Source: Arthrobacter sp. CAU 1506 (GTDB lineage Bacteria > Actinomycetota > Actinomycetes > Actinomycetales > Micrococcaceae). Taken from it: a DNA stretch of 64,000 nucleotides. The stretch's first letter is position 1, and each line of letters starts with the position of its first letter. This document shows positions 34,363-51,942 of this stretch, one piece after another. The stretch spans positions 124,001 through 188,000 of the forward strand of contig NZ_SUKC01000008.1 of the NCBI RefSeq assembly GCF_005047635.1, read 5' to 3'. Below the pieces are notes generated by a model. That model did no database searches. It was given only the letters and a program-made list of their open reading frames with translations, and was not told where the DNA came from. Both the position numbers and the translations under genes were made by a program.

Positions 34363-35757
34363 TCACACGAGTTTTAGCTGTTCCATCCAACGAAGGATCA
34401 GGGCCGCCTGCGTTGGGCTCAATCCGTTGGACGATTCTTCGCGCAGCTGCCGTCGGAGCTCATCTCGAGGGAGGGATAGTGCTTTGCTCCGTACCTCCGA
34501 AGCTCCAGCGATTCGCGACATGAACTGGTCCTGCAAGATTTCGAGAGTTCGCTCCTCGAGGAGGCGCTCTCCTGTTTCGGTCAATCGCACTCGGTCTTCT
34601 GAGAAAGAGACCAGACCCAGAGAGGCCAAAATGCCGATTCTTCGGCGAGCTTCCGACGCCAGAGTGATTGACGGAAACGCTTCTTGGAATGACTCAACGA
34701 ATTGCTCATAACCGGGCTCATCTCGCGCGATTTCAGTCATTTGAATCAAGGTTTCCAAGTAATCTCCCTTGCGACCGTCTGGGAGCTTCACCACTGGATA
34801 AAGAGCTGGAGCGGCGTAGTAACGCTGTCGTTCCCGATCGAACGAGTTGCGGTCGATCCGCTCGGCCACCTCAACCGAGTCTTGGCGAATATCCAGATTG
34901 AGCGCGCCCTTCGCCCTTTCAAGCAGACTGGCCGGTCGGAGCATGAAGAGTCGGTGTCCTGACTCCCGGTTGAGTTCCTCGAAGAGCTCGATCCGTGGTC
35001 CCCGAATCTGCCCTTTCTCACGACGCCACCAGTCTTCTTTGACGTCCCCGGTAACTAAAACGATATCCATTGGCCTCGCTATGGCGACATCGAGTATCTG
35101 ACGCCACAGCATGTAGTCACCATGCGGAGCCAAACCAGACTTGTCAGCGTCCTCGTAACCAGGCGGCAGTCGCTCATCGATTCGCCGCTGCGCCTCGCGG
35201 GAATGCTGCTCCACCTCATCTTCGTGAAACGGCGCACCTACACATTCGTTGGTGATAGCTACTAACCGAGCAAGAACCGGGTCACGATTGGTGTCGATGG
35301 CCGAGTCGAGGCCGCCATCGCTGAATTCTTCGACATGTACAATTACTCGATCATGAGCCGCGTCAAGAATCGTGTGTAGTTCTTGGACTCGGGAGTCGGC
35401 CAGCCCCGCGCGTTTAGCCCACCTAGATAGCGATTGCCTCGACCTGTCTGCAAGCCCGCTGAGCTCGTTCTTCAACTGGTCCGCCGCACTTGATGCCTCT
35501 CTTATAGTCGCGTCCCTGTTCCGCCAGAACTCCACTGCGACCTGATGCGGAATGAACAGCCGATCGTGGAAGGCTTCAAGTGTACGGAGCAAATCTTCGC
35601 GGGCATCTTCGTGATATCGATAAACGTTGAGCAGTACATTGGTATCAACTACTAAGAGGCCGGATTTGAGGGCTGCGGTGTATTCGTCGTCGCTGGGGGA
35701 CAGATAGGCTCGAAACCTTTCGAGGAGCCCGTTGTCTCTAATCGCTTTGCTATCCAT
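34363..35757 (-). CDS. PIN-like nuclease domain protein (PIN_8 type) with C-terminal winged helix
   Basis: 464 aa. The PIN core uses Asp38 in LLVVDTNVLLNVYRYH, a Glu in AVEFWRNRD, an Asp in HGDYMLWRQILD and DIVLVTGDVKEDWW for the acidic metal cluster; a helical insertion (about 85-130) is typical of the larger PIN-like family found in defence loci. Residues from about 330 form a winged-helix-like tail (RRIGILASLGLVSFSEDRVRLTETGERLL). AGG precedes the ATG at 35757. First gene of the defence island; tandem with the ATPase/GIY-YIG group on the same strand, 153 bases downstream of it. Probable RNase or DNase effector. Confidence 0.8.
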   Translation of the reverse strand: MDSKAIRDNGLLERFRAYLSPSDDEYTAALKSGLLVVDTNVLLNVYRYHEDAREDLLRTLEAFHDRLFIPHQVAVEFWRNRDATIREASSAADQLKNELSGLADRSRQSLSRWAKRAGLADSRVQELHTILDAAHDRVIVHVEEFSDGGLDSAIDTNRDPVLARLVAITNECVGAPFHEDEVEQHSREAQRRIDERLPPGYEDADKSGLAPHGDYMLWRQILDVAIARPMDIVLVTGDVKEDWWRREKGQIRGPRIELFEELNRESGHRLFMLRPASLLERAKGALNLDIRQDSVEVAERIDRNSFDRERQRYYAAPALYPVVKLPDGRKGDYLETLIQMTEIARDEPGYEQFVESFQEAFPSITLASEARRRIGILASLGLVSFSEDRVRLTETGERLLEERTLEILQDQFMSRIAGASEVRSKALSLPRDELRRQLREESSNGLSPTQAALILRWMEQLKLV

Positions 35758-35910: not shown

Positions 35911-37686
35911 TTATTCGTCGAACCTAACGAGTTCCTTCATGTACGCCTGAGTGTGTTGGCCCCAATAACTGCGCAGGTCCTCGAACTCCTCGGGCTCGCG
36001 GTGGAGGTTCTCTGCCTTTGCGTAGGCGAGGAATAGCATGTCAAGTGCCATGGACGTGCGGCGAATGAGGTTGTGCATTTCGGCGGCGTCCTGCTCGTCG
36101 AACGGCTTGTCCGCTGTCTCTCGTAGCACATCGTAGATGTCGCGGATGAACGGGTGACGGTGATTCAGGCGGAGGATGGCCTTTGCATTTAGGTGGTCGA
36201 CAGTCATGAGTTCCTTGCCGGGCCAGTTGCCGTCGAGGATCGTCATCGAGTGCTGAGCAATATGTGCGCGGATCCCATCTGCCTTGTTGGCGTTAGCCTC
36301 CGTGTTGATCTCCAGTTCGTCGAGGATCTCGTCGATCTTCGCGCTTTCCTGCTCAAGGGTGAGATTCAAGCTGGCCTGTCCACGGGGCGCCGTCTGCTCG
36401 GCGCGATCGACTGCCTCCTGGACGGCTGGGTCACGGCCATCGACGCTCTCCGCCTGTTGTGTGATCCGGACTTCGTCCCAATGACGTCGGATCTCTTTAC
36501 GGGCCTGTGTTACCGGGCGCTTGAGCCATTCGCGGAGCGCGTTGCGGAGCTTGCTTACTGGCTCAGCGCCCCTCTTGACATGGCGAACCTGGAAGTACTC
36601 GTCGAGCTCAGCTGGGAACGAGACCTCAATACCGATGTAACGGTCGCCAACGGTCACGCCTCCGGTGAGCATTCGGGGAACGATGTCATAGTAGATCTCG
36701 CGGCCATTACGCATCATGCTAATGCGGCCTTCGTTGTCTTGATTGATCTGGAACTCGCGAATATCCCTGCCGTCGAGATCAGTTTCACCGCCCTTCCCCT
36801 TTTCGTGACGGAAAATCTCCGGGGCGATTGACACGCTGACGTGCACTTGGTGGTCGTCGATTGTGAGATCGGTCTCCTCGATAACCTTGCCCTTGAGGCT
36901 ATCGGGACCAAGCCCATCACGCATGCCATAGCGTGTCTGGATGCGAGGGTCGTCCAGCAGGAACAGCGGATCATGCAACGTTACTGGCTTTCCCGCTAGG
37001 ATGATGTTCAGGCCCTGATCGAGGAACTGACGGTAAGCTCGGGCGATAAATTTGCGCAGGTCCGCGATCTTGGTGTCGAGTGAGGCACCGTACGTGCCTC
37101 CGCTTGAGAGCCGGTCGATGTGCTGCCAGAGGACGAGGGTTCCGCTCTCGAAGGGCTCACCTTTAAAATCCTTCATCAAGTCGACGTATTCTTTCGGCCA
37201 GCCGCCTACCTCAACCGACCGAATTTCCGTCTGACTCCCGGCGCTGATCTCGTCTAGGTCCAGATAAGCAAGGTAGTAGGCATTGCTACCGGCGGCTTTG
37301 GCATAGACCTCGATGCGGGTGCCGACGCTAAGAGCAGCGAGTTTGAGGCCGACACCAAATCGGCCGAGACCTTTGCGCTGCCCGTAGCGGCTCGAGTAAC
37401 CCATCTTAAGGACCTTGGCGAGCACCGGAAGGTCTATACCGCGCCCGTTGTCGGCGAAGGCGATTTCCGTGATGTGCTTCCTGTCCTTGGAGTACATGGG
37501 TTCGATCCGGATGACCGTGGCGTTGGCCTCGATCGAGTTGTCGATCGGTTCGCCTACGGCCGCGGTGAGGTCGAAACCGGCGTCGCGCATGCTCTCCAGC
37601 GCCTTATCGACTTCGATGATAGGCGAGGTGCGGGCCGCATCGACAGTTGCGGAGGATGGTGCCTGGAAGATGGGGTTGGTAGTCAT
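35911..37686 (-). CDS. GHKL (Hsp90/MORC/MutL-like) ATPase
   Basis: 591 aa. The Bergerat ATP-binding fold is clear: EPIDNSIEA (46-54, with Glu46 and Asn50), FADNGRGID (78-85) and GLGRFGVGLK (106-115). The rest has mixed alpha/beta and a helical C-terminus without a recognised nuclease motif. AAAAGGAAC precedes the ATG at 37686; a long in-frame extension to 38052 is the antisense shadow of the GIY-YIG gene. Such ATPases act as conformational switches that clamp DNA or partner proteins. It is downstream of GIY-YIG and sigma-like genes on the same strand, suggesting a three-gene unit in which this protein is the switch and GIY-YIG the nuclease. Confidence 0.85.
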   Translation of the reverse strand: MTTNPIFQAPSSATVDAARTSPIIEVDKALESMRDAGFDLTAAVGEPIDNSIEANATVIRIEPMYSKDRKHITEIAFADNGRGIDLPVLAKVLKMGYSSRYGQRKGLGRFGVGLKLAALSVGTRIEVYAKAAGSNAYYLAYLDLDEISAGSQTEIRSVEVGGWPKEYVDLMKDFKGEPFESGTLVLWQHIDRLSSGGTYGASLDTKIADLRKFIARAYRQFLDQGLNIILAGKPVTLHDPLFLLDDPRIQTRYGMRDGLGPDSLKGKVIEETDLTIDDHQVHVSVSIAPEIFRHEKGKGGETDLDGRDIREFQINQDNEGRISMMRNGREIYYDIVPRMLTGGVTVGDRYIGIEVSFPAELDEYFQVRHVKRGAEPVSKLRNALREWLKRPVTQARKEIRRHWDEVRITQQAESVDGRDPAVQEAVDRAEQTAPRGQASLNLTLEQESAKIDEILDELEINTEANANKADGIRAHIAQHSMTILDGNWPGKELMTVDHLNAKAILRLNHRHPFIRDIYDVLRETADKPFDEQDAAEMHNLIRRTSMALDMLFLAYAKAENLHREPEEFEDLRSYWGQHTQAYMKELVRFDE

Positions 37687-37744
37687 GTTTTCGTTCCTTT
37701 TCTCTGCCGGGGAGGCGTTCGGCGGCCCGGGCGATATGGGTGAG

Positions 37745-38122
37745 TCAGGCGGGAATGGACGGGATGTCGAGGCGGTTGGAGCGCACGATACGGACGGTCT
37801 CGATGCAGAACGGGCAGGGCGGCTCGTGGATTGAAGGGCGCTGTGGGTGGATAAGATTGGAGGTTTGGTCGGCGAGAGCGTGGAACAGACAGCACTCCAT
37901 GGCGTAGGCGTTGTGTGCTGAGAAAACGACGTCGTAGGTGAAGTAGGCGTGTGGCCGGTTCTGGGAGTGCTCGAGCAGACGCCGGCGTAGGCTGGTGTCG
38001 CTTCGGCCCACATAGGCGGGAGTGCCGCGCGACCACAGGACGTAGGCGCCAATGACGCCCTCTGGGATGAGAGCGCGGATTAGCCATGGCCTGAGGGCAT
38101 ATCTGCGGGGTTTCATGCGCAC
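37745..38122 (-). CDS. GIY-YIG-like nuclease
   Basis: 125 aa. The two beta strands read GAYVLW and AYVGRS (variants of GIY and YIG), followed by LRRRLLEH with the catalytic Arg and Glu76 in AYAMECCLFHAL, the metal-binding Glu. A CPFC pair (102-105) near the C-terminus may bind zinc with other residues. It overlaps the sigma-like gene by 10 bases and lies 58 bases before the GHKL ATPase. Single-domain, so substrate choice must come from a partner. Likely DNA nuclease of a defence unit. Confidence 0.8.
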   Translation of the reverse strand: MRMKPRRYALRPWLIRALIPEGVIGAYVLWSRGTPAYVGRSDTSLRRRLLEHSQNRPHAYFTYDVVFSAHNAYAMECCLFHALADQTSNLIHPQRPSIHEPPCPFCIETVRIVRSNRLDIPSIPA

Positions 38123-38610
38123 GTCACCTCAGCTATGTAGCCGGCGAAGGCTGCACTTCGTGCACGCGAGATGCGCTCACGCATGCGCTTGACTGGAAGT
38201 CCGGCAGCGCAAGCGAGGGACTCGGCGTCGTGGCCCCGGGCAACGGCCTTGAGTAGTTGGCGTTGGTGCACGGTCAGGGACGGCGTGGAATCGAGCCAAT
38301 CGAGCAACTCGAACTCCGCGAGCGGGTCGTAGGCGCTGGCTGCCTCTGCCTCAGCGCGCTTGGCTGCATACAGGTCGGGATCGTCGAAGGAGACCAGACC
38401 TTGCCTGGCGCGGTCTTTGACGACTTTCAGCGCGTTGGCACGCGCGCTCCTGACCATGCGAAGAGGTTGGCTGGTCTTAGTATGGTTGCGAATCAGTTCG
38501 TCGAGCGCACGGTCGATGCGGTCGAGTTCGACGGTGTCGAGAGACGCACGTGTGACTTCGGATTGCTGCTGGAGGGTGCTCACAGCAGACTGGATTTCCA
38601 AGCTCATCAT
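38113..38610 (-). CDS. Sigma-region-4-like helix-turn-helix protein
   Basis: 165 aa. A helical N-terminal half leads into LTVHQRQLLKAVARGHDAESLACAAGLPVKRMRERISRARS in two adjoining stretches (about 114-153), which has the rhythm of a sigma-70 region 4 or LuxR-type helix-turn-helix. No region 2 is visible, so it is not a full sigma factor. Weak ribosome site at the ATG. First gene of the sigma-like/GIY-YIG/GHKL unit, overlapping the nuclease by 10 bases; it may regulate the unit or guide it to DNA. Confidence 0.7.
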   Translation of the reverse strand: MMSLEIQSAVSTLQQQSEVTRASLDTVELDRIDRALDELIRNHTKTSQPLRMVRSARANALKVVKDRARQGLVSFDDPDLYAAKRAEAEAASAYDPLAEFELLDWLDSTPSLTVHQRQLLKAVARGHDAESLACAAGLPVKRMRERISRARSAAFAGYIAEVTCA

Positions 38611-39058: not shown

Positions 39059-40123
39059 TCATTGGCCTGCCTGGACAGCGGCATTCGCATCCGGCGCGGG
39101 CGGGGGTCCATCCTCCGTGGCCTGCCAACCGCTTGCGCAGTAACGATGGAACTCCATCACGTCCTCAAGTAGCTGGATGGCTTCGTTTAACGACCGTCCC
39201 GTGTGAGGGCTCGTTGAGTAGGATGTCATTAGGTTTGAGTGCGGGTATCGTTGATGCCTTCTCCAGGCCATACCTAGATGGTTTATGGCATCCCATCCGA
39301 AAAGCTCCGCCTTCCGCGACGATTCCGGCTCCTCCTGGTACATCGTCCGGAACCCTGCCTGGACTATGGCGAGCGCTCCTGCGATCGCGTCGGAGCCTTC
39401 AAACACGCACAATCCGTCATTCTCTGCTCGGACGGCTATTTCCGTCTTGGAAAGCACGGGTGTCGTGTCAGAGTGATGAGATTTCATCCATGCAAGCAGA
39501 ACTTCGGCGATGAACTGATGTCCTCGTGCAAGTAGATCTTGTGAATCCAGACAGAGCCAGTCCTGAACGTCTGATTTCATCATCACGCCTGGATAGCTCG
39601 TCCACAGGTGAAGTAGCCACGGAAACGTCTGCGGTCGGAAGGCGTGAGTGTTTTTTTCAGGGAGGGTCACGGTCTTCGGGGTTTTCGGCTCCGTTTCGTC
39701 CGTTTCAGTTCGGCGAGCATCCTTCGACAGATTTTCAGCATGCGCTTCTTCCCACGCCGCAAGTGTCGCCTTCAAGTCTCGCGGAGACGCAAAGCGCTTC
39801 CGGTCTCCCTTGAGGATGATCAGAAATGTCGGAACTCCGACTTCAGCTCCGGCTATCCATCCCCTGACTCGCTCCACTGCGGGGGAGGGATCTTGTCCGC
39901 TGGTCATGTTTTTGACCTGCGCATGTGCGACTCGTCCCGAAAGGGACCAAGAGTTTCCTAACTTATTGTATTCCTGCGGTCTCAGCGGAACCTGAATGTG
40001 GAGGTCTAGTCCATAATCGGATCCGGTTAGCGAGTTCACCACCGCGCCCATAAGGAGGAACTCTTTCAGAGTATCCACTTCTCCGATGTCGCCGCTATGC
40101 TTGAGCCGCTTCCTGATTGCCAT
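39059..40123 (-). CDS. DUF4365-like PD-(D/E)XK nuclease-domain protein
   Basis: 354 aa. The N-terminal 75 residues contain the restriction-endonuclease-fold pattern of DUF4365: GEVDTLKEF (Glu15, Glu21), SDYGLDLHIQ (Asp40) and AHAQVKNM (Gln69-Lys71). Residues 75-354 are mixed alpha/beta, including FPWLLHLWTSYPGVMM, not assigned. ATG 40123 is chosen over 40144 because GGAGG lies five bases upstream. DUF4365 proteins occur in defence loci as standalone nucleases. No partner gene is close on the same strand, so it may be a solitary system. Confidence 0.72.
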   Translation of the reverse strand: MAIRKRLKHSGDIGEVDTLKEFLLMGAVVNSLTGSDYGLDLHIQVPLRPQEYNKLGNSWSLSGRVAHAQVKNMTSGQDPSPAVERVRGWIAGAEVGVPTFLIILKGDRKRFASPRDLKATLAAWEEAHAENLSKDARRTETDETEPKTPKTVTLPEKNTHAFRPQTFPWLLHLWTSYPGVMMKSDVQDWLCLDSQDLLARGHQFIAEVLLAWMKSHHSDTTPVLSKTEIAVRAENDGLCVFEGSDAIAGALAIVQAGFRTMYQEEPESSRKAELFGWDAINHLGMAWRRHQRYPHSNLMTSYSTSPHTGRSLNEAIQLLEDVMEFHRYCASGWQATEDGPPPAPDANAAVQAGQ

Positions 40124-40590
40124 CGGCGCCTCCGATCCCATCATTGGTCTCCATTCGTCCCCGCTGTAATTGTTGGTTTAGACTACCGTCCATATGGGAT
40201 TGGGCCTGTAAGTAGGCTTGCGAAGTGTTCTCACCGGATCTCCCGCAATCGCCAGGGCTGCGCCTGCGGTGGGCGAGAGAGCAAACTTACGCGTCGGATT
40301 GTGCGATCTAAAAGGCAGTTGAGGTAGCGCGAGACGTGTGCGCTGCCCGCTCCGTGCTGGCTCATAACCCAGACAAGATGACGACTTGCCGAGCCTGCCG
40401 AGAAGGGCAGGTCGCACGACTTATGGGCTGCCACGGGTATGTGTTACCGAAGCCGGTTGTTTCTGCAGGGATACAGGGAAACCGCAATGTTATCTCTAAA
40501 GTGCAGTAAGATTTAAAGCCGTTAACATTTTGACATTGTTCGTCTGACGGATATAGTCGAGTCTGACATGGTATACAGTGGGGAAATCTA
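40124..40590. other. 467-base intergenic region, promoter-bearing
   Basis: Divergent spacer between the nuclease and the small membrane protein. Open frames here are short and unconvincing. The right part is clearly more A+T-rich and holds a near-consensus promoter at 40530-40557. Confidence 0.5.
40530..40557 (+). promoter_or_regulatory. Near-consensus sigma-70 promoter
   Basis: TTGACA, 16-base spacer, TATAGT. A start near 40564 would give a leader of about 27 bases to the ATG at 40591, preceded by GGGGA. It is among the closest matches to consensus in the window. Confidence 0.65.
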
Positions 40591-41516: not shown

Positions 41517-42704
41517 TTAGCGCTCCTGCAGAGCGCGGAGGCGCCGCGCGATCTCCCTGTAGGGAAGCCCCGCCGTTCCCGGTCCCCAAGAAAGTCGGAG
41601 CGCTCTCTCCACTCTGACTTGAGCGAGCCCCGCTGCCGTCAAGACATGACTCGGTTCGTAAGCTTGTGACGTGCAAGCTGAGCCGTTCGACAAGGCGACA
41701 ATATCCTTGAGCGCCACGATGGCGGCCTCCGAATCGACGCCAGGGATGGAGACGTTGAGCGTACTAGCAACCGTCCGATTCGGATCACCATTCACTTCGG
41801 CGCCCAGCGGGGCCAAAACTGTTAGGAGTTCTTCCTTGATCTCCATAGCCGCTTGCGATCGGTGCTCCGATTCTCTCAGCGCCAATGTGGACGCTGTTCC
41901 CATCCCGGCAATGAGAGGCACAGGAAGGGTCCCAGGGCGAAGGCCGCGTTCCTGCCCGCCGCCGAACATGAGCGGTGTGAGGGGGATCCTTTTGTAACCC
42001 CGCCGCCGGCAAATGAGTGCGCCGACGCCTTTGGGGCCGCCAATCTTGTGCCCAGAAACCGCCAGGAGATCGATACGCGGGTTCCTGAGCGGCTCAATCA
42101 GCTTGCCGAACGCTTGGGCGGCATCCACATGAAAGTATGCGTCGTGGCCCGACATCACCCTGCCGATTTCCGGAATCGGTTGGATTACTCCGGTTTCGTT
42201 GTTGACGGCCATCACAGACACCAGCAATGTGTCGGGACGCAGCGCGTCCGCGACAGCTTCGGGTGAAACCCATCCGCCCTCGGTGGGGGGCAGCAGCTCG
42301 ACTTCGAATCCCCGTGCCTGGAGAATTTCAAGAGGCTCCAGAACCGCCTTGTGCTCGATCTGCGTGGAGATGACATGGCGCTTGCCGCTGGCCTCGCCGT
42401 GTGCGGCTAGCCCTAAGATTGCTAAGTTGTCGCTCTCGGTGGCACCGCTGGTGAAGATGACCTCGTCGACCTGAGCGGCTACCACGGCCGCTACCTCGCC
42501 CCGCGCCTGTTTGACGCGCTCTTTAGCCCGCTGTCCGTAGGAATGCGTCCGACTGCCGGCATTGCCGAACTCGGACGCCATGTAAGTCATCACCTCTTCC
42601 GCCACGCGAGGATCTACGGGCGTGGTGGCGTTGAAGTCCAAGTAGACCGGCATTCCTGGTGTAAGGGGTCTCTCGGCGTTGGGATCGGAGTTCGTTACGC
42701 TCAT
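41517..42704 (-). CDS. dndA: Cysteine desulfurase of the phosphorothioation system
   Basis: 395-aa PLP enzyme (IscS/NifS fold) that takes sulfur from cysteine for DNA phosphorothioation. PLP Lys220 lies in SGHKIGGPKG, His118 in TQIEHKAVLE, and the persulfide Cys344 in SNGSACTSQAYEPSHVL; LRPGTLPV is the usual substrate-binding loop. ATG 42704 gives the normal start (PVYLDFNATTP near residue 20); the longer frame runs antisense into the dndB promoter. Divergent from dndB-E with a 92-base spacer containing a 24-base palindrome, the classical dnd arrangement. It could be a general IscS, but this placement supports DndA. Confidence 0.92.
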   Translation of the reverse strand: MSVTNSDPNAERPLTPGMPVYLDFNATTPVDPRVAEEVMTYMASEFGNAGSRTHSYGQRAKERVKQARGEVAAVVAAQVDEVIFTSGATESDNLAILGLAAHGEASGKRHVISTQIEHKAVLEPLEILQARGFEVELLPPTEGGWVSPEAVADALRPDTLLVSVMAVNNETGVIQPIPEIGRVMSGHDAYFHVDAAQAFGKLIEPLRNPRIDLLAVSGHKIGGPKGVGALICRRRGYKRIPLTPLMFGGGQERGLRPGTLPVPLIAGMGTASTLALRESEHRSQAAMEIKEELLTVLAPLGAEVNGDPNRTVASTLNVSIPGVDSEAAIVALKDIVALSNGSACTSQAYEPSHVLTAAGLAQVRVERALRLSWGPGTAGLPYREIARRLRALQER

Positions 42705-42757
42705 ATCTGCTAGCCTAACCCAGCGTATGGAGTCGTGTTTGGAGAAAAGTGGCGTGT

Positions 42758-42781
42758 TGTTTGGATGTAGACATCCAAACA
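42758..42781. promoter_or_regulatory. 24-base palindromic operator between dndA and dndB
   Basis: Arms TGTTTGGATGT / ACATCCAAACA separated by AG. An additional half-site TGTTTGGA lies at 42736-42743, 22 bases (about two helical turns) upstream on the same face. It covers the region between the divergent dnd starts and ends 15 bases before the dndB ATG. Likely bound by DndB or another dnd repressor. Confidence 0.7.
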
Positions 42782-42796
42782 TGATTGAATCGGAAC

Positions 42797-43951
42797 ATGC
42801 CACAAAAGAGGTCGATCCCTCCAATTCCGGGCGGCGGAGTCTCAAGCGCCAAGTCTGGCGAGTTCGAATATGCCTTTCCTGCCATCCGCGGCGTCCAGGC
42901 GGGGCACGAGTACTACGTGACTATGTGCCCCCTGCGAATCGTCCCCCGCCTCTTCCTATATAATGAGGAGGAGTTGCCCCCGGAGATGCGCGCGCAGCGT
43001 TCCCTCAATAAAGCGCGGGTGCCTGAGATGGCGCGCTACATCGTGGAGAATCCGGACAGCTATATCTTCTCAGCGCTGACCGCCTCGGTGAACGCTGACG
43101 TGCGCTTTGAATCGCCGCTAGGGGACACCGGCCCTGCGGAGCGGGTCGGTACGCTGACGATCCCCATGTCAGCCACTTTTATAATCAACGACGGGCAGCA
43201 CCGCCGAGCTGCCATTCAACAGGCTCTAACCGAGAATCCCGCTCTCGGTGACGAGACAATCGCCATAGTCATGTTCATTGACGTCGGCCTCAACCGTTGT
43301 CAACAAATGTTTGCTGACCTGAATCGCTACGCCATTCGCCCAGCAAAGTCGATCGGCGTACTCTACGATCATCGTGACCCGATGGCGGCCATCTCGAGGC
43401 TTGTCGTCTCCCAAAACCCGCTCCTCAGCGACTTGACCGAGATGGAGAGCAGCAACTTGGCGCCCCGCTCGCGGAAGCTGTTCACGTTATCTGCGCTGCA
43501 CACAGCGACGAGTGCCCTGCTAAATGAGGTCAAGACAAACTCATTGACTGAACGCGTCGACCTTGCAACCGAGTTCTGGCGCATCGTCGCTGGCCAGTTC
43601 TCGGTGTGGCAGCAGGTCTACCGAGGTGAAGTCACGGCTGGTGAAGTTCGTCAAGACTTCATCCACACCCACAGCATCGCGCTGCACGCCCTGGGCCGAG
43701 TGGGCAACACCCTGCTCCGCGAGAGTCCCATCCCATACGCCTGGGAGGAGCGTTTGGGGAAACTGCGCACCATCGACTGGCACCGCAACAACGCTGATAC
43801 TTGGGAAGGCCGCGCGACTACCGCCGGCAAGGTCAGCAAAAGCCGCACCAACGTGGAACTTACCACCGCATACATTCGAACCGTGCTTGGGATGCCGCTC
43901 CCTCCCGACGAACAGCGCGCAGAGGATGCTTTTACCCGAGGAGAGAAATGA
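42797..43951 (+). CDS. dndB: DNA sulfur modification protein DndB
   Basis: 384-aa DGQHR-type protein: FIINDGQHRRAAIQQAL carries the signature motif and MFADLNRYAIRPAKSIGVLYDHRD is the conserved following block. DndB is not needed for modification but tunes its level and is reported to repress dnd transcription. ATG 42797 is used rather than TTG 42785; neither has a strong ribosome site. It overlaps dndC by 4 bases. Its own operator candidate is just upstream. Confidence 0.92.
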   Translation: MPQKRSIPPIPGGGVSSAKSGEFEYAFPAIRGVQAGHEYYVTMCPLRIVPRLFLYNEEELPPEMRAQRSLNKARVPEMARYIVENPDSYIFSALTASVNADVRFESPLGDTGPAERVGTLTIPMSATFIINDGQHRRAAIQQALTENPALGDETIAIVMFIDVGLNRCQQMFADLNRYAIRPAKSIGVLYDHRDPMAAISRLVVSQNPLLSDLTEMESSNLAPRSRKLFTLSALHTATSALLNEVKTNSLTERVDLATEFWRIVAGQFSVWQQVYRGEVTAGEVRQDFIHTHSIALHALGRVGNTLLRESPIPYAWEERLGKLRTIDWHRNNADTWEGRATTAGKVSKSRTNVELTTAYIRTVLGMPLPPDEQRAEDAFTRGEK

Positions 43952-45492
43952 CGACGATCAGCCTGCCCATCCGCCCCCGGTCCCGGTCAGCCTTCGATGA
44001 TCTCGGTTTCGCCGCTACGATCGACGGGCTAGTAGCCCAGACTCAGCAGCTGTATCTAGCTGACGGCGTACCGTGGGTTGTAGGCTATTCAGGCGGGAAG
44101 GACTCTACCGCGACGCTCCAGATCGTCTGGCTCGCGCTTCAGGGGTTGGAACCAGAGCAACGCACGAAGCCGGTGCATGTCATCAGTACGGACACGCTTG
44201 TCGAGAATCCTGTCGTCTCCGCATGGGTGACCCACTCGCTCGAAGTCATGGCCAGCGCAGCAGAGGCCCATCATCTGCCGTTGACTCCGCATAAGCTGAC
44301 GCCCGCCGTTACCGATACGTTCTGGGTGAATCTCATCGGGCGCGGATACCCTGCGCCTCGCCCGAAGTTCCGCTGGTGCACCGAACGGCTAAAGATCAAG
44401 CCCTCGAACTCCTTCATCCGCGAGATGGTGCGCTCCCATGGCGAAGCCATTCTGGTGCTCGGCACCCGGAAGGCTGAAAGTTCCGGACGAAATGCTCGAA
44501 TGTCAGCTCTCGAGTCACGGCGGGTTCGAGACCTCCTAAGCCCTAACGAATCCTTGCCGAACGCCCTTGTCTACTCACCAGTTGAAAACTGGTCAAACGA
44601 TGACGTCTGGACATTCCTCATGCAGTCCCCCAATCCTTGGGGCTACTCCAACAAGGAACTGCTCACGATGTACCAAGGCGCCTCGGCCGACGGTGAGTGC
44701 CCGCTTGTCGTTGATTCTTCGACGCCCAGCTGTGGCAGCAGCCGCTTCGGCTGCTGGACCTGCACGCTTGTCGAACAGGACAAATCTATGGCAGCCATGA
44801 TCCAAAATGACGAAGAGAAGGAGTGGATGCTGCCCCTTCTGGAACTCCGCAACGCACTCGATATCCCCGATGACCGTCACCTCAGGGATTTCCGCCGAAT
44901 GAACGGCTCGGTGCAGCTCTTCCATGACCGGCCCATTCCGGGACCGTATACGCAGTCTGCCCGTGAGGACTGGCTGAGGCGGTTGCTAGAAGCACAGGTC
45001 TGGATCCGGGAGAACGGCCCGGAGTATGTCCGCTCGCTGGAGCTGGTGACCTTGGCGGAACTCGAGGAGATCCGACGAATTTGGGTCGTTGACAAGCACG
45101 AATTTGAGGACCATCTTCCCGGCCTCTATCAGGCTGCGCTCGGAGAGCCATATCCGGGCAAGCCGCTTGACGAGCACCTGCCTCTCGGGGCCGACATGAT
45201 TAAGTCCCTGCAACAGGTCGTTGGGGAAGATCGCCTTCATTTCGAGCTGGTTCGTGAACTGCTGGATATTGAGCAGCGCCACCGCTCCCAGGTGCGGCGC
45301 GCCGGATTATTTGAGTCCTTGGAAAAAGCTCTTCGGCGTGGTTTCTACGACGACGAAGCGGACGCCACACTTCGGGCGCAGAAGCGCAAGACGGCTATGG
45401 ATCGGACCGAGCAGGATCCGGAACCAGATGATCCTGACCCACTCGACATCGCCGATGGTTACGTGCGGGCGGTTTCGGAGTCCGCGTCATGA
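43948..45492 (+). CDS. dndC: DNA sulfur modification protein DndC (ATP pyrophosphatase, 4Fe-4S)
   Basis: 514-aa PAPS-reductase-like ATPase that activates the DNA backbone for sulfur transfer. The PP-loop is SGGKDS (48-53); Cys144 (FRWCTERLKI), Cys262, Cys269 and Cys272 (CGSSRFGCWTCTLV) match the four cluster cysteines of DndC. The C-terminal tail is acidic and Pro/Asp-rich. ATG 43948 overlaps the dndB stop (ATGA); the frame continues upstream only as a shadow. Confidence 0.95.
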   Translation: MTTISLPIRPRSRSAFDDLGFAATIDGLVAQTQQLYLADGVPWVVGYSGGKDSTATLQIVWLALQGLEPEQRTKPVHVISTDTLVENPVVSAWVTHSLEVMASAAEAHHLPLTPHKLTPAVTDTFWVNLIGRGYPAPRPKFRWCTERLKIKPSNSFIREMVRSHGEAILVLGTRKAESSGRNARMSALESRRVRDLLSPNESLPNALVYSPVENWSNDDVWTFLMQSPNPWGYSNKELLTMYQGASADGECPLVVDSSTPSCGSSRFGCWTCTLVEQDKSMAAMIQNDEEKEWMLPLLELRNALDIPDDRHLRDFRRMNGSVQLFHDRPIPGPYTQSAREDWLRRLLEAQVWIRENGPEYVRSLELVTLAELEEIRRIWVVDKHEFEDHLPGLYQAALGEPYPGKPLDEHLPLGADMIKSLQQVVGEDRLHFELVRELLDIEQRHRSQVRRAGLFESLEKALRRGFYDDEADATLRAQKRKTAMDRTEQDPEPDDPDPLDIADGYVRAVSESAS

Positions 45493-47465
45493 TCCTGAAT
45501 GAACTCGTTCTCCACAACGTGGGCACCTTCGCCGGACGGCACGTCATTGACCTAACTCCGCCCTCACCAGACAAGCCTATCGTGCTAGTCGGCGGCCTCA
45601 ATGGTGCTGGAAAGACCACTTTTCTGGAGTCGATTCAGCTGGCTCTCTACGGTTCGCTCGCGCACGGCACCGGACGACGTGCAGGCGGCTACGAAAACTA
45701 CCTCCGGGGCTTGATACATCGTGGCGTACCTGCAAGTGAAGGCGCTGTCATCGAACTTACCTTCACAGCGCACCAGGAGGGGGCGGAGCACACCTATACG
45801 GTGCGACGCAGCTGGAAGAACGCGGGCGCCTCGATCCGTGAACTCCTCTTGGTTTCCGTCAACGGTAGGTACGACCAGTCGCTGACCTCGACTTGGAATG
45901 AACACGTCGAGACGTTCCTCCCCCGAGGGATCGCTGGGCTCTTCTTCTTTGACGGTGAGCAGATCGAGGCCCTCGCCGACATGGACCGTTCCCGTCAGGT
46001 CCTCAGCTCGGCCCTTGCGGCCCTGCTTGGTCTCGATCTCGTGGAACGCCTCAGCACGGACCTCACTGTTCTCAAACGACGCCACAAGGGCGAGAAGGTG
46101 CCGGATGGTCTCCGTCAGATCGTCGAGGAGAAGAACCGACTGCTAACCGCTGGCCGCCAGGCTGAGGAAACTGCAGTCCAAGCCGAGGCAGGTCGCAGGA
46201 CCGAAATGGAGCGCCGTCAGAAGGTACTCCATGAGGCAACCGAAGCGTATCGCGCTGCCGGGGGCGATCTTCTCGATCGACGCGAGTCGGCGGAAGCAGA
46301 TGCAGGCATCGTGCGCTCGGGACTGGCACAGTGCGAGGACCACATCCGGCATGAGATTTCAGGGGTATCCCCACTGCTGCAGCTCGATGGACTTCTTGAA
46401 CAGTTGGGTGACCAAGTGCACCGCGAGGCCGACGCCCAGCGCAACACCCTGATGCTTGAAGCCTTCGAAGCGCGCGATTTCGCTGTGCTCCGGGAGCTTC
46501 GAGGCGCCAACATGAATGGGGCTACGGTTGCCGCTGTCGAACAGCTCCTCAGGAGTGATCGAGATGGGCGGCGCGTCTTCGTAGATGCCGAGGAAATCAT
46601 AGGATTCCGGGATCCGTCGGCGTTGGAAGCTTTGCTGACGACGACCCTCCCGGAGGCACGCAAACGCCTGCAGTCAGCTGTCGATCGGAGGGAAGAGCTC
46701 AAGAGCGAGCTAGACCAGGCTGAGCGAGTCTTGGCTGCCATACCCGATCCAGAAGCACTCGCCCCGCTCCGCCGGCAACGTGAGGATGCTCGCGACGAAC
46801 TCCTTCGAGCCGAAGCTGCCCACACGGTTGCTGTCGAACTCGTCGCTTCCACACGCGCGGCCAGCGCCAAGGCCAACGCAGCTTACGAAGCTGCGCTAGA
46901 CAAGGCAGCACTGGTGAATCTGACCGCCGACGACGATCGACGGCTGGTTGAGCACGTCGACCGTGTCCGTGCGACCTTGGAGGATCTGCGTATTGCTGCA
47001 GCACGCCGACACCTTGAGCGAATTTCGCAGTTGATCCTTGAGGCACTCGGCATGCTGCTCCGCAAGGAGAATCTCATCACCGACGTTCAGATTGACCCTG
47101 AGACGCACGAGGTATCGCTCACGGGCGCAGACGGTCGGCCGCTGCCCGCCAAGGACCTTTCCGCCGGGGAACGACAACTTCTGGCGGTCGCGCTCCTCTG
47201 GGGTCTGGCACGCGCATCGGGCCAGCCGCTCCCGGTGGTTATCGATACGCCGCTCGGGCGTCTCGACGGATCCCACCGTGAGCATTTACTGGAACGCTAT
47301 TTTCCAAATGCCAGTCATCAGGTGGTGTTGCTGTCGACGGACACCGAAATCGACGAGGAGGCCTTCGCCCGCATTTCGCCCAGCACTGGCCTCACATACC
47401 ACTTGGAATTCGACGTAAATGCCAATGCGACGCGCGTCGAAACCGGCTACTTCTGGGAGAAATAA
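45489..47465 (+). CDS. dndD: DNA sulfur modification protein DndD (SMC-like ATPase)
   Basis: 658-aa ATPase with a split nucleotide-binding head: Walker A GGLNGAGKTTF (35-45), FFFDGEQIEALADMD, then a long coiled coil (about 190-520) and the C-terminal signature LSAGERQLLAVAL with Walker B PVVIDTPLGRLD. DndD supplies ATP-driven DNA handling for the modification complex. ATG overlaps the dndC stop. The coil shows no CxxC zinc hook. Confidence 0.94.
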   Translation: MILNELVLHNVGTFAGRHVIDLTPPSPDKPIVLVGGLNGAGKTTFLESIQLALYGSLAHGTGRRAGGYENYLRGLIHRGVPASEGAVIELTFTAHQEGAEHTYTVRRSWKNAGASIRELLLVSVNGRYDQSLTSTWNEHVETFLPRGIAGLFFFDGEQIEALADMDRSRQVLSSALAALLGLDLVERLSTDLTVLKRRHKGEKVPDGLRQIVEEKNRLLTAGRQAEETAVQAEAGRRTEMERRQKVLHEATEAYRAAGGDLLDRRESAEADAGIVRSGLAQCEDHIRHEISGVSPLLQLDGLLEQLGDQVHREADAQRNTLMLEAFEARDFAVLRELRGANMNGATVAAVEQLLRSDRDGRRVFVDAEEIIGFRDPSALEALLTTTLPEARKRLQSAVDRREELKSELDQAERVLAAIPDPEALAPLRRQREDARDELLRAEAAHTVAVELVASTRAASAKANAAYEAALDKAALVNLTADDDRRLVEHVDRVRATLEDLRIAAARRHLERISQLILEALGMLLRKENLITDVQIDPETHEVSLTGADGRPLPAKDLSAGERQLLAVALLWGLARASGQPLPVVIDTPLGRLDGSHREHLLERYFPNASHQVVLLSTDTEIDEEAFARISPSTGLTYHLEFDVNANATRVETGYFWEK

Positions 47466-47860
47466 TGCCGATCGAACACATCCGCTTGTCGCAGACAGCC
47501 AGGGACCAACTCATCACGCTGAAGCGCCGCACGGGAATTCAGCACTGGAATGTCCTTTGCCGCTGGGCCCTCTGTCGTTCACTTGCTGAGCCTACCGCCC
47601 CGCCGGCACTCAATCTCACCTTGGACAGCAACGTTGAGATGAACTGGCGTACTTTCGGGGGCGACTTCGGCGACGTTTTGTGGGCACTGCTGAGGCTCCG
47701 CTGCCACAATGATGGCCTGCCATCGGAAGAGGAGACACTGGCGCAGCAGTTCCGGCTTCATCTGCATAGGGGCATCGGCTATCTCGTTGGAGACCCTCGG
47801 TCCTCCGATATCGCAGGACTTGCCAACATGGGTCTGAGTGAGCCGCCAGCTCCATCATGA
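47465..47860 (+). CDS. dndE: DNA sulfur modification protein DndE
   Basis: 131-aa small basic protein: HIRLSQTARDQLITLKRRTGIQHWNVLCRWALCRSL in two adjoining stretches is the DndE helical fold, with Lys/Arg residues that bind nicked DNA in characterised DndE. One-base overlap with dndD (TAATG). Completes the B-C-D-E operon. Confidence 0.92.
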   Translation: MPIEHIRLSQTARDQLITLKRRTGIQHWNVLCRWALCRSLAEPTAPPALNLTLDSNVEMNWRTFGGDFGDVLWALLRLRCHNDGLPSEEETLAQQFRLHLHRGIGYLVGDPRSSDIAGLANMGLSEPPAPS

Positions 47861-49305
47861 CCGACACGCCCATAGCGCGTCATAAGACGGCGCTCAGCCG
47901 AACAGGTCTCTCGCGGCCGATATCAACGGCAATCGCTGACGGTCTGTTGGGGCAGGATAATACGGTCTTCGACTATGGCTGCGGCAAAGGCGACGACATA
48001 CGGCACCTTCTGGCCCTCGGTTATGCTATCGAGGGATGGGACCCGGTGCACCGACCGAATGTGGACAGACGAGCAGCCGAAGTCGTGAACCTGGGCTATG
48101 TTCTCAACGTCATTGAAAGCAAGAAAGAGCGTGCCCAGACCCTGCAGTCAGCGTGGGCTCTCGCAACGGGATTGCTTGTGGTATCCGCACGTTTGACGTG
48201 GGATGGCCGGAACCTCGGCGGGCGCCCCCTCGGGGACGGAGTCATCACGCGCACGGGCACTTTTCAGAAATTCTACGAACAGACCGAACTAGCAGATTGG
48301 ATCGAACAGACGCTGGATGTCAAGCCGTACGCAGCTGCCCCGGGCGTCTTCTACGTGTTCCGGGATAAGGCGGCAGCACACCGATTCACCGCGTCGAGGA
48401 TTTATACCTACCGCCCACGCATCACAATTGATCCGCATGTCCTCTATGAAGGGAATCAGAAAACGCTCGCTCCCCTGCTGTCCTTCATGCAGGCGCACGC
48501 CCGCCCGCCTCGGCCAGTTGAACTCCAGCGTGAGGAACTCTTGCGGATTCAGGATGTATTGGGAAGTGTAGGGCGCGCCGAGCGCCTGATCCGGCAGGTC
48601 ACCTCTGACAGCTATTGGGAGCAGGTTGTCCTCCGGCGGCGGGCCGAGCTCCTGATCTACGTGGCGCTTTCCCGGTTTGGCCGGAGGCCCAGTTTCTCGC
48701 AACTGGACAGAGTCTTGGGCGCCGATATCCGAATGCTCTTCGGCGCTTATAGGGAGGCTTGTCTACAGGGTGATCGACTTCTTCTTGCCTGTGGAAACCA
48801 GGCGAAGCTATTTATGAGTGCCCGAAGTTCGAAAATCGGGAAGCAGACGCCTACTGCACTGTACGTGCACCACTCCGCTATGGCCCAGATCCCGCCCATA
48901 CTCCAGGTCTATGAAGGGTGTGCGCGGGTGCTTGCTGGTACGGTCGAGCACGCCAACATGATCAAGCTTTCGGTGGCAGAACCCAAAGTTTCATATCTTA
49001 GCTATCCCGACTTCGACCGGGTTCCGCATCCGACCCTTCAGTCAGCCGTCACGGTCAATTTGCGGAATCTCACGGTCGACTTCAGGGATTACCGCACTTC
49101 GGAAAATCCGCCCCTCCTTCATCGCAAAGAAGAGTTCCTGGGCCCTGACGACACGAATCGAACTCGGTACGCGCGCCTCACTCGATCAGAGATGAAAGCC
49201 GGCCTCTACGATCATCCAGAGTGCATCGGAACGCTCAAAGGATGGATGGAAACTCTCGAGGCCGCACACGTGAAGATCCAAGGTCACCGGCTTATTCGCG
49301 GCTGA
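47857..49305 (+). CDS. Phosphorothioation-associated putative methyltransferase
   Basis: 482 aa. The N-terminal SAM-binding motif VFDYGCGKGDDIRHL (37-51) is followed by IEGWDPVHRP and NLGYVLNVIE, matching the family of DNA-phosphorothioation-associated putative methyltransferases; the C-terminal half is specific to it. Overlaps dndE by 4 bases, so it is part of the modification operon. Its target (DNA base, phosphorothioate or protein) is not established. Followed by a strong hairpin. Confidence 0.85.
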   Translation: MTDTPIARHKTALSRTGLSRPISTAIADGLLGQDNTVFDYGCGKGDDIRHLLALGYAIEGWDPVHRPNVDRRAAEVVNLGYVLNVIESKKERAQTLQSAWALATGLLVVSARLTWDGRNLGGRPLGDGVITRTGTFQKFYEQTELADWIEQTLDVKPYAAAPGVFYVFRDKAAAHRFTASRIYTYRPRITIDPHVLYEGNQKTLAPLLSFMQAHARPPRPVELQREELLRIQDVLGSVGRAERLIRQVTSDSYWEQVVLRRRAELLIYVALSRFGRRPSFSQLDRVLGADIRMLFGAYREACLQGDRLLLACGNQAKLFMSARSSKIGKQTPTALYVHHSAMAQIPPILQVYEGCARVLAGTVEHANMIKLSVAEPKVSYLSYPDFDRVPHPTLQSAVTVNLRNLTVDFRDYRTSENPPLLHRKEEFLGPDDTNRTRYARLTRSEMKAGLYDHPECIGTLKGWMETLEAAHVKIQGHRLIRG

Positions 49306-49414: not shown

Positions 49415-49885
49415 TTACCATTTCACCCCGCCGAGTAGCTCATCGACGCTCATGGGTTTAATACCGCCCTCTTGAGCCAAAGCAGTAGTGACGACTTCGA
49501 GCACGACCAACGCCGCTGTCTGGTGGCGGGTGTTGATCTGTTCCTGGATGTACTCCAGCCCGCCGTTGGCGTACTCCTCGAAGATCCGGATCCGTTCCTC
49601 AAGACGGGCGGCGTCGAGGATCTCGGGGTCATCCGAAACGGCATTGACAGCGATCATGCTGATTAAGGAATCACTGTAGAGGGGGTTGGTCAACACATCG
49701 ATGCGGATACCCTCGCCCCCTGTTCCGTTTAGCGGGACGCGCCGGTCCTGATTCCACCCGACGGCGGCGGCGAAGAGAAGAACATCGCGGTAAGTCGGGA
49801 AGCCGGCCTCTAGCTGCATCACTTCAATGAGCACAGCATGATCCTGTGGCCGCCTCGCGCGAACGTCTGTTTGTGGACTCGTCAT
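49415..49885 (-). CDS. Dnd system-associated protein 4-like
   Basis: 156 aa. FPTYRDVLLFAAAVGWNQDRRVPL, SLISMIAVNAVSDDPEIL and RLEERIRIFEEYANGGLE in sequence are the conserved blocks I associate with dnd-associated protein 4, a small protein of unknown biochemical role found beside dnd genes. No catalytic residue stands out. The ATG overlaps the stop of the SMC-like ATPase (ATGA). Last gene of the minus-strand effector operon; perhaps an adaptor or regulator of the ATPase. Confidence 0.75.
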   Translation of the reverse strand: MTSPQTDVRARRPQDHAVLIEVMQLEAGFPTYRDVLLFAAAVGWNQDRRVPLNGTGGEGIRIDVLTNPLYSDSLISMIAVNAVSDDPEILDAARLEERIRIFEEYANGGLEYIQEQINTRHQTAALVVLEVVTTALAQEGGIKPMSVDELLGGVKW

Positions 49886-51942
49886 CGAATCTCGATCTCC
49901 TGCAGCTTGGAGTACGCCGTCTCCGACGGCCGAATGTATGGGTAGGGTGTGCCGCTCAACTCGATGTCCTCCGGCTCGACTCCACTTCCAGACGCGTGAC
50001 TCTGGATGACCCCGAGGTGGCTTAGGAAGGGTCGAAGTTCAGTCAGCACATTCCCGAGGCCTTGGCTCTTGCTCACCAGAACCACCAACTGCGGGGCCAA
50101 TTTGGCAAGCGCCCTCGAAACCGCCGTCTGATAGTTTACGTCGAGTGATCCGAATGCCGCGTCCATGACGATTGGGTATACGCCTGCGTCCGGCGCACCA
50201 CTGACTTCCGCATCCTGAAGCTCTTTGCTCTCCCGGGCCAAGGTCGAGACAGCGGCGACAAAGCTTAGGCTCAGGATCTGGTTCTCCCCAGTGGACTTGC
50301 CGACCGGAAGGTTCGTAACTTCGTCGTAGAGCGACAATTCGAAGTTTTCACTCAAAGTAGGAATGTAGGACTTTTTGAATGTGATTTCGCTGTAGATCTC
50401 CTTTAGCTTCGCGTCCAGGCGCCGTCTCATGTCCGCCTCTCGGATCGCAAGGATTTCTGCAAGCGCCTTTCGGACGTGAGTGACGAGGTTTGAGCGCCCC
50501 AAGGCACGAGCCGCCAGCTCATCCTCGATCTCGGCTTTGCTGCGTTCGCGGTTCTGGTGTTCCAGATCCTTCGCGATGGTCTGCAGATCGTTCTTCAAGC
50601 CGCCGATCTCCTGCAGGCGGGCGGCTATCCGATTATCGAGTTCAATACGTTTGCTCTCAAGGAGTGCGACCTCCTCGTGCCGGCTGTCCCGTAGCTTGTA
50701 GTCGAGTTCCGAGCTCTCCGCCACCAACTCGCTGATGCGATCATTCAGGTCATCGATTTCTTGGATGACGGTGCTGAGTGCTTCGCGAAGATCGTTACGG
50801 GCGCCTCCGATCAGCTCGATCTGGCCGCGCAATTTCTGCCACGCCGTCTCGACTTCCTGGAGTCCGGCCTTATGCCTCCACTCCTGAACCTGTTTCCATG
50901 CGGGCGAATGCTCGGCCAACTTGGTACCGCAGATGCAGGTCTCTTCGTCGAGCAGCTGGTCGACGAACTCGCGCTTGAGGGGAGCCGGAAGGGCGCCACG
51001 CCGGTAAAGGCTCTGTGCCATTGCCTCTGTCTTACCGCAGAGAGGATCGGTGAAGGCCAGAAACCCGCGGGTTGCGATCAGGTGAGAACGTCTGTTCTGA
51101 GCCGCTTCCATCTCATCGCGAGCGAGGTTTAGATCCTTACCTACCTGATCGCGTCTTTCTTGGATTGGAGCCGCTTCGGCGTGTTGTCGAAGAACGGCGA
51201 GGACCCCTTCTCGTTCTTCCGAGAGCGCAGCATGCTTGCCCTCGGACACGACAAGCGCATCTTTTGTTGTTGTCTCACGCTCATTCAGGTTGTCGATGGT
51301 TTCCTGAATCTTGGATAGGGCCCCACCGTCCTTTTTACGCAGGTCCGCCGTTACTTTGTTGTCGACCTTCTTAAGATGGGCTAAGGCTCTCTCCACTTGT
51401 TCGAGCCCTAGGAGCATCTTGATGTCTTTTTGGGCTTCTGCGTATGCGCCACCCGCAACCAGCTTCTCGATCCGCTCACCATTGAAGAAGAAGAAGCGAC
51501 TGAAGCTCTCGGGAAGGATGCTCGAAACCTTGACTTGCGGACCCTCAACGATCTCAGAGGAGCCGTCCGGACTGGTCACCCACAACTGAATCTGGGGAGC
51601 GCCCGACTGCTGGAGATCGGATTCTTTGCGCAAGCTCATCGAGCGTAAGAGTCGGTAGTTGAGCCCCTCGTGCTCGAAATGGATGTCTACGGCGACGGTT
51701 ATGCTGGCACCAATGGCGGTACGAGCCCACGCGCCGTCGCTGACCAAGCGGTTCTTCTGCTCGAGGTCGTCCGACAGAATGCCGTATAAGCACCATGTGA
51801 AAGCGTTGAGGAAGGTGGTTTTGCCGGCGCCATTCGCGCCAAAAAGCATGGCCACAGGGCGCACGTCGTCCGTTGAAAGGTCGAACGTCTGCTCACCTTC
51901 AAACTGACGGAAGTTGGTGAGAGTGATGGACTGTAATTTCAA
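49882..51942 (-). CDS. SMC/RecF-like AAA ATPase of the dnd-linked effector operon
   Basis: 686 aa with Walker A GANGAGKTTF (about 35-44), FFFNGERIEKLVAGGAY, a long coiled coil (about 185-560) and Walker B YPIVMDAAFGSLD. At mid-coil a CICGTKLAEHSP motif resembles a Rad50-type zinc hook, with CxC rather than CxxC. It is similar in plan to DndD yet has this hook, and sits in the opposite operon, so it is a separate ATPase, probably a DNA-sensing or translocating part of a restriction complex. Coupled by ATGA overlaps to the 53-aa protein upstream and dnd-associated protein 4 downstream. Confidence 0.85.
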   Translation of the reverse strand: MKLQSITLTNFRQFEGEQTFDLSTDDVRPVAMLFGANGAGKTTFLNAFTWCLYGILSDDLEQKNRLVSDGAWARTAIGASITVAVDIHFEHEGLNYRLLRSMSLRKESDLQQSGAPQIQLWVTSPDGSSEIVEGPQVKVSSILPESFSRFFFFNGERIEKLVAGGAYAEAQKDIKMLLGLEQVERALAHLKKVDNKVTADLRKKDGGALSKIQETIDNLNERETTTKDALVVSEGKHAALSEEREGVLAVLRQHAEAAPIQERRDQVGKDLNLARDEMEAAQNRRSHLIATRGFLAFTDPLCGKTEAMAQSLYRRGALPAPLKREFVDQLLDEETCICGTKLAEHSPAWKQVQEWRHKAGLQEVETAWQKLRGQIELIGGARNDLREALSTVIQEIDDLNDRISELVAESSELDYKLRDSRHEEVALLESKRIELDNRIAARLQEIGGLKNDLQTIAKDLEHQNRERSKAEIEDELAARALGRSNLVTHVRKALAEILAIREADMRRRLDAKLKEIYSEITFKKSYIPTLSENFELSLYDEVTNLPVGKSTGENQILSLSFVAAVSTLARESKELQDAEVSGAPDAGVYPIVMDAAFGSLDVNYQTAVSRALAKLAPQLVVLVSKSQGLGNVLTELRPFLSHLGVIQSHASGSGVEPEDIELSGTPYPYIRPSETAYSKLQEIEIR

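Follow-up and report, generated by a model that had tools for sequence, protein, structure and literature searches.

A GHKL ATPase, a GIY-YIG nuclease and a sigma-region-4-like protein encoded beside DNA phosphorothioation genes in Actinomycetota: a candidate restriction module

The present analysis deals with three adjacent genes in a 64,000-nucleotide stretch of DNA from Arthrobacter sp. CAU 1506 (contig NZ_SUKC01000008.1, positions 124,001 to 188,000), the whole of which is hereafter called the window. All three genes are on the minus strand and are together called the trio: a first gene for a sigma-region-4/LuxR-like helix-turn-helix (HTH) protein of 165 amino acids (38113..38610), a gene for a standalone GIY-YIG (URI) nuclease with a C-terminal CxxC (37745..38116), and a gene for a GHKL ATPase of 591 amino acids (35911..37686), which consists of a MORC-type GHKL+S5 module (residues about 25-406) and a C-terminal domain (about 480-591). 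A complete DNA phosphorothioation (PT) cluster, dndABCDE, is located 3 kb from the trio, at 41517-47860. An earlier reading of this DNA from its letters alone (the sequence-only reading) had presented the trio as a three-gene unit and missed this defining context; because the trio is linked to DNA phosphorothioation, we regard it as a companion of Dnd and not as free-standing.

The three same-strand genes with an overlap and a 58-base gap that the sequence-only reading had described were all found as minus-strand open reading frames (ORFs) at this place. Two start codons are candidates for the GIY-YIG gene, GTG at 38122 (125 amino acids) and ATG at 38116 (123 amino acids), and judging from the junction sequence the latter is more likely, since it forms an ATGA overlap with the HTH stop codon and is preceded by AGGTGA. 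The ATGA overlap behind AGGTGA therefore points to a putative translational coupling of the HTH and GIY-YIG genes. The GHKL gene starts 58 bases downstream of the GIY-YIG gene and has its own AAAGGAA site before the ATG; a longer GHKL ORF of 713 amino acids was rejected as an artefact, because its upstream TTG start overlaps the GIY-YIG gene. A promoter and terminator scan yielded nothing exceeding shuffled expectation, so that gene spacing is the sole ground for the proposed operon structure.

The ATPase matches Pfam HATPase_c_3 (E 1.6e-18), and its ATP-binding motifs (E46/N50, D79xGxG83, G108RFGxG113 and G182T183) are intact and at least 90% conserved across relatives linked to Dnd and to Ssp, the other known DNA-sulphur system. 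Structures were predicted with a plasmid-derived sequence row left out. The ATPase model, with a predicted local distance difference test (pLDDT) score of 78, matches SMCHD1 and MORC3 at Z 20.6 and 20.2, respectively, and the MORC, SMCHD1, Topo VI-B and Hsp90 matches (Z 17-20) cover residues about 25-406. The Bergerat motifs (E/N, DxGxG, GxxGxG and T) together with the fold place the protein in the GHKL superfamily with a MORC-like GHKL+S5 architecture. Membership of the MORC family proper was rejected, and because the MORC-specific S5-domain motif GhXhhpXXRhl is absent in all 14 sequences, we call the ATPase MORC-like (paraMORC-type) and not a MORC. A mark of paraMORC2 is a conserved ExxxH in the C-terminal part of S5; the window protein has an ExxxH at 398-402, after the S5 strands, and most, not all, relatives have one nearby, so that a place in paraMORC2 would be tentative. 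The C-terminal domain (480-591) is conserved among relatives.

For the nuclease, the Pfam match to GIY-YIG is below threshold (E 0.016, 16 bits against a cut-off of 22.6) and the nearest relative of solved structure is UvrC (E 0.23). An alignment of nine sequences from Actinomycetota and Nostoc keeps GxY, YxGRS, R48, H52, E76, N89 and CxxC, and the invariance of GxY, YxG, R48, E76 and N89 in 9/9 sequences places the protein in the GIY-YIG (URI) superfamily with an intact active site. The HTH protein, which belongs to a conserved family of 12, has no confident Pfam match and a weak sigma-70 match (TIGR02989). In its model (pLDDT 87), the C-terminal half (residues 94-165) matches sigma-4 and LuxR HTHs at Z about 7, which supports a predicted sigma-region-4/LuxR-type HTH; since structural matches of the N-terminal helices are poor, we call the protein only sigma-4-like, and its status as a working sigma factor is putative. 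The domain calls of the sequence-only reading (HTH, GIY-YIG and GHKL) were thus right, and a match to a named system, sought as a possible refutation of its statement that the trio was not recognised as a known one, did not appear, none of the three proteins being assigned to a system above cut-off by NCBIfam or PADLOC.

These genes recur in at least 11 distinct loci, either all three together or HTH and GHKL as a pair; relatives of the ATPase turned up at 13 loci in one scan of the genome collection. Neighbourhood conservation, which the sequence-only reading had named as a check, was found: full trios in the same order were mapped by tblastn and ORF maps in Acrocarpospora, Frankia, Mycobacterium asiaticum, Arthrobacter, an actinomycete metagenome-assembled genome (MAG) and a Streptomyces-derived contig, Streptomyces genomes also carry it, and a plasmid search found one on a Nocardiopsis plasmid, whose three proteins are 54, 49 and 40% identical to those of the window. 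Pairs of HTH and GHKL genes are present in Embleya, Streptomyces rugosispiralis, Catenulispora and Sphaerisporangium, where searches with hidden Markov models (HMMs) found no GIY-YIG; Nostoc has a GHKL-GIY arrangement, and an HMM search detected a decayed GIY-YIG in an Acidobacteria MAG. In the IQ-TREE phylogeny, Dnd-linked ATPases form one clade (99/99) with the GIY-less members at four separate points, and therefore GIY-YIG is probably ancestral and was lost several times, the constant core being HTH and GHKL. A conserved three-gene unit in a conflict context is thus supported, with an amendment as to the nuclease, which is dispensable within it.

Several further observations were made on these relatives. 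Arthrobacter sp. AK04 has, shortly ahead of its intact gene, a second and partial copy of the GIY-YIG N-terminus (L023:9467-9562), a remnant duplication. A long DndB-related protein (about 720-780 amino acids) is encoded directly downstream of GHKL in three Streptomyces loci (L020:3761-6178, L030:9955-12126 and L106:12676-14844). The IMG/VR contig L030 (UViG_2767802101_000004) was considered as a case of phage carriage and rejected, as those of its proteins that were compared are 100% identical to the Dnd region of the Streptomyces chromosome L105; it is probably not viral.

The trio is closely associated with Dnd. DndC was found in 10/10 actinobacterial genomes with a trio or pair (the window included) at 60-100% identity, and also on contig L030; when the genomes of L105 and L106 are added, 12/12 are Dnd-positive. 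The base rate of DndC among sampled Actinomycetota is 1/246, the one being the window's own genome. The phylum-wide search for GHKL is uninformative, since its sole orthologue is in this genome. Among 296 Streptomyces genomes searched for both proteins, DndC was present in 15 and a GHKL orthologue in 4, all of which belong to the 15 (Fisher p = 4.4e-6, or 8.6e-5 if the seed genome is left out); in each of the 4, GHKL and dndC are on one contig, within 13 kb of each other. The fourth match, G682, is a more divergent orthologue (33%), for which no HTH or GIY was detected. Genetic linkage to PT modification genes, one of two marks of a PT-dependent restriction module, is therefore present, and PT-dependent discrimination of self from non-self DNA, the other mark, is predicted. 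An independent case is provided by strain-specific genes of Rhodococcus qingshengii RL1, in which dndABCDE, the methyltransferase, protein 4, AAA, DEAD and GIY-YIG are in one locus-tag run (PMC8416521).

Mantel tests on pairwise protein distances gave r = 0.72 for HTH-DndC, 0.58 for GHKL-DndB and 0.53 for GHKL-DndC (p <=0.001), and these correlations persist with RpoB controlled; within the trio, r is 0.70 for GHKL-HTH and 0.54 for GHKL-GIY. Correlation of the trio with host RpoB is near zero, and that of GHKL with PbeA and PbeC is negative or nil. DndCDEA-PbeABCD (Xiong 2019, PMC6459918) resembles our candidate module in being a PT-linked restriction module, found in the window and in most trio loci, but its proteins are a phospholipase D (PLD)-helicase, a small protein, a CxC ABC ATPase and a DndE-like protein. 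The trio proteins have no PADLOC Pbe match, and PbeA was undetected in 4/13 trio/pair genomes, namely those of Frankia, Catenulispora and two Streptomyces; GIY-YIG is retained in three of the four. On these grounds, we rejected the assignment of the trio to PbeABCD. From the co-occurrence, the Mantel results and the PbeA absences taken together, the trio follows the modification genes, and neither Pbe nor the host.

Distant full-length relatives of the ATPase (25-30% identity) are found beside SspB, SspC and SspD, often together with a cysteine desulfurase, in cassettes of a superfamily 2 (SF2) helicase, GHKL and PLD. PADLOC identified SspBCD in L024 and L026, SspC and SspD in L014, and SspD in L013, while other Ssp-locus assignments are based on annotation (phosphoadenosine phosphosulfate reductase, DUF4007). 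The nucleases thus differ between the two known DNA-sulphur systems, but the ATPase lineage beside them is the same. The SF2 helicase-GHKL-PLD cassette recurs by SspBCD-type genes in L013, L014, L016, L026, L027, L071, L072 and L076 and is a candidate Ssp restriction partner. Its identity with SspFGH was ruled out in view of the Walker A motif of SspF and the resemblance of SspH to FtsK, and our text searches gave no match for the combination of sspBCD, helicase and phospholipase D. On two Vibrionaceae plasmids (L011 and L012), genes for divergent GHKL relatives precede a gene of the phosphoadenosine phosphosulfate reductase family.

The remaining genes around the trio in the window are as follows. 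A cysteine desulfurase gene, dndA (41517..42845, minus strand; PADLOC SspA/DndA, E <1e-130), precedes dndB, dndC, dndD and dndE (42785..47860, plus strand; Pfam and PADLOC) and a DNA phosphorothioation-associated putative methyltransferase (47857..49305, plus strand; TIGR04096, 5.1e-184). A relative of this methyltransferase is present in the Ssp locus of an Acidobacteria MAG (L024), and since it is found in nearly all trio-linked Dnd loci and in this one Ssp locus, it may be a general PT accessory. On the minus strand follow the DNA phosphorothioation-associated protein 4 (49415..49885; TIGR04062, 3.8e-24, over cut-off), which adjoins pbeC and is probably a PbeD-type protein, a PbeC-type ABC ATPase (49882..51942; PADLOC PbeC 5.4e-241), and PbeA with a PLD-like domain and an SF2 helicase (52146..54281; PADLOC PbeA 4.2e-248; TIGR04095 6.4e-163). 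Beside pbeA, 54278-56623 encodes a protein of 781 amino acids with a sigma-70 region 4 domain, which matches MzaA, and a segment like the C-terminal domain of the RNA polymerase alpha subunit; its relatives are near full-length in M. asiaticum and partial or weaker in the Sphaerisporangium and Streptomyces loci.

Downstream of the GHKL gene, a PIN_8-domain protein is encoded at 34363..35757 (minus strand; 6.5e-61); relatives of it are encoded close to the trio or pair at three further loci (L018, L030/L105 and L106, i.e., Embleya and two Streptomyces loci), and it is a probable accessory effector. Upstream of the trio on the same strand is a gene without a confident family in Pfam, PADLOC or NCBIfam (39059..40144); no relative of its product was found in the other trio loci, and its membership of the module is putative. 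Island borders were sought with same-genus genomes, where the flanks tried had no close orthologues.

We propose that the trio is an accessory restriction module of PT defence, located beside and inherited with dndABCDE of some Actinomycetota, in which an ATP-driven clamp would deliver a separate nuclease and PT would mark self DNA; we give this reading a probability of roughly 0.52. An ATP-driven clamp plus nuclease, with the HTH as a regulator or targeting factor, is the best inference also as to the mode of action. The GHKL protein would dimerise upon ATP binding, like MORC and MutL, and close as a clamp on DNA, and the sigma-4-like HTH protein may aim this clamp at DNA or control the operon. 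The GIY-YIG protein would be a dedicated nicking or cleaving subunit, licensed by the clamp as part of a putative complex. PT tags on host DNA would cause the clamp to release or to fail to load, so that only untagged invader DNA, such as that of phages, would be cut. In loci without GIY-YIG, cutting could be performed by another nuclease of the locus, i.e., the PLD domain of PbeA in most and an Mrr-type protein in Catenulispora. A precedent is provided by DndI, SspFGH and DndFGH, which are ATPase-nuclease partners of PT systems and damage untagged DNA (PMC11662687, PMC8092258).

Four points weigh against this proposal. GIY-YIG is missing from at least five Dnd-linked GHKL loci (L018, L020, L025, L029 and L107) and is therefore not an obligate subunit. 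PbeA and PbeC are also present in most trio/pair genomes and could restrict alone. The ATPase is present in only about one in four Dnd-positive Streptomyces, and Dnd thus does not need it. The trio-bearing Nocardiopsis plasmid has no DndC on its own sequence, to which the search was confined, the chromosome lying outside it.

The main rival, which we consider unlikely, is a backup suicide module, in which GIY-YIG would degrade DNA indiscriminately once an invader disables Dnd or Pbe, with GHKL as the sensor or switch that keeps it inactive in health. Such a role has been proposed by Rakesh et al. (2024; PMC10853773) for URI (GIY-YIG) and PIN genes that stand alone at the edges of Dnd loci and in some cases are encoded on the other strand. 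The window trio has such a position, as it borders the Dnd locus, runs opposite to dndBCDE and has a PIN gene downstream; the loss of GIY-YIG in some loci also suits an optional effector. However, the trio is central in some loci, being directly downstream of dndE in L105 and L106, and the co-divergence of HTH and GHKL with Dnd proteins is a tighter coupling than a generic backup requires. Moreover, this survey of the genes around Dnd makes no mention in its text of GHKL, MORC or MutL proteins, although it does name URI/GIY-YIG nucleases.

A type-IV-like module, in which the GHKL/HTH complex would recognise modified DNA (foreign PT or phage base modifications) for cutting by GIY-YIG, is quite improbable. 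Dnd loci do contain HNH and restriction endonuclease proteins fused to readers of PT or modified bases (PMC10853773), but Pfam, NCBIfam and PADLOC gave no known reader domain (SBD wHTH, SRA or HARE) in the trio, and the host's own DNA, in the same cell, should itself bear PT. We likewise see little chance of a non-restriction role as a Dnd regulator or repair assistant, where the MutL-like ATPase and the nuclease would act on nicks or mismatches at PT sites, and dnd expression would be under the control of the HTH. The MutL homology within the GHKL superfamily, the fact that the HTH shows the strongest co-divergence with DndC, and the existence of Dnd systems without the trio are consistent with such a role, whereas the repeated loss of the nuclease and the use of SF2 helicase and PLD nuclease by Ssp-linked relatives, which is a usual composition of restriction complexes, argue against it. 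An independent defence system merely sharing defence islands with Dnd, where unrelated systems are known to cluster, would suit the Nocardiopsis plasmid, but is disfavoured as the least probable of all by the absence of the ATPase from every Dnd-negative genome among the 296 Streptomyces, the presence of Dnd in 10/10 trio/pair genomes, and protein distances that correlate with Dnd, and not with the host or PbeA/C.

Under the proposed restriction module, the trio is probably an undescribed restriction arm that uses the sulphur tag to separate own from invading DNA. For many Dnd and Ssp modification clusters, a restriction partner has yet to be identified: over 80% of the sspBCD clusters have neither sspE nor sspFGH (PMC8092258), and it is common for DndABCDE to be uncoupled from DndFGH (PMC10853773). 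An ATPase-nuclease module that tracks Dnd and has relatives on the Ssp side is a concrete candidate for part of this gap, and also a bacterial setting for testing how MORC-type ATPases respond to a DNA mark. A more speculative extension, for which we would claim no more than a tentative place, is that one MORC-like GHKL lineage might provide the clamp that responds to PT in Dnd (double-strand) as well as in Ssp (single-strand), with nucleases swapped (GIY-YIG in Dnd, SF2 helicase and phospholipase D in Ssp); this would be another PT restriction machine and a bacterial parallel to MORCs on epigenetically marked DNA.

Our text searches, which did not extend to the supplementary data of PMC10853773, the figures of PMC2292703 or subscription papers, gave no paper that links GHKL ATPases to Dnd or Ssp. 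DndI, DndFGH and SspFGH resemble the trio as ATPase and nuclease partners of PT modification, but DndI carries an HNH nuclease, SspH and DndH resemble FtsK/HerA translocases, and neither PMC11662687 nor PMC8092258 reports any of them to be a GHKL ATPase or a GIY-YIG nuclease; TIGR03237 (dnd_assoc_2), used to check for DndFGH, matches 0/13 trio/pair genomes, with control genomes likewise unmatched. MZA (sigma-like MzaA, GHKL protein MzaB, Z1 and AIPR) similarly has a sigma-4-like protein followed by a GHKL ATPase, and MzaB is the nearest named family of our ATPase, over residues 30-243 only (73.7 bits against a cut-off of 850). Identity with MZA was rejected, as this match is below cut-off, no Z1, AIPR or PD-(D/E)XK was found among the scanned neighbours, and MzaB-type proteins are on a separate long branch. 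In the Shedu type with an N-terminal GHKL (VcSduA, paraMORC3; PMC12137116), a GHKL ATPase likewise controls a nuclease in phage defence, both active sites being required, but the nuclease is of PD-(D/E)XK type, is fused in one chain, and has no reported PT link. The paraMORC GHKL ATPases of restriction-modification operons (Iyer, Abhiman and Aravind 2008, PMC2292703) share with our ATPase the GHKL+S5 architecture, a nuclease alongside, often an SF2 helicase, and DNA-modification neighbourhoods, and a DNA-looping role has been proposed for them; in the text of that paper we found no pairing with dnd or with GIY-YIG and a sigma-like HTH, while its figures may include the helicase-GHKL-PLD form.

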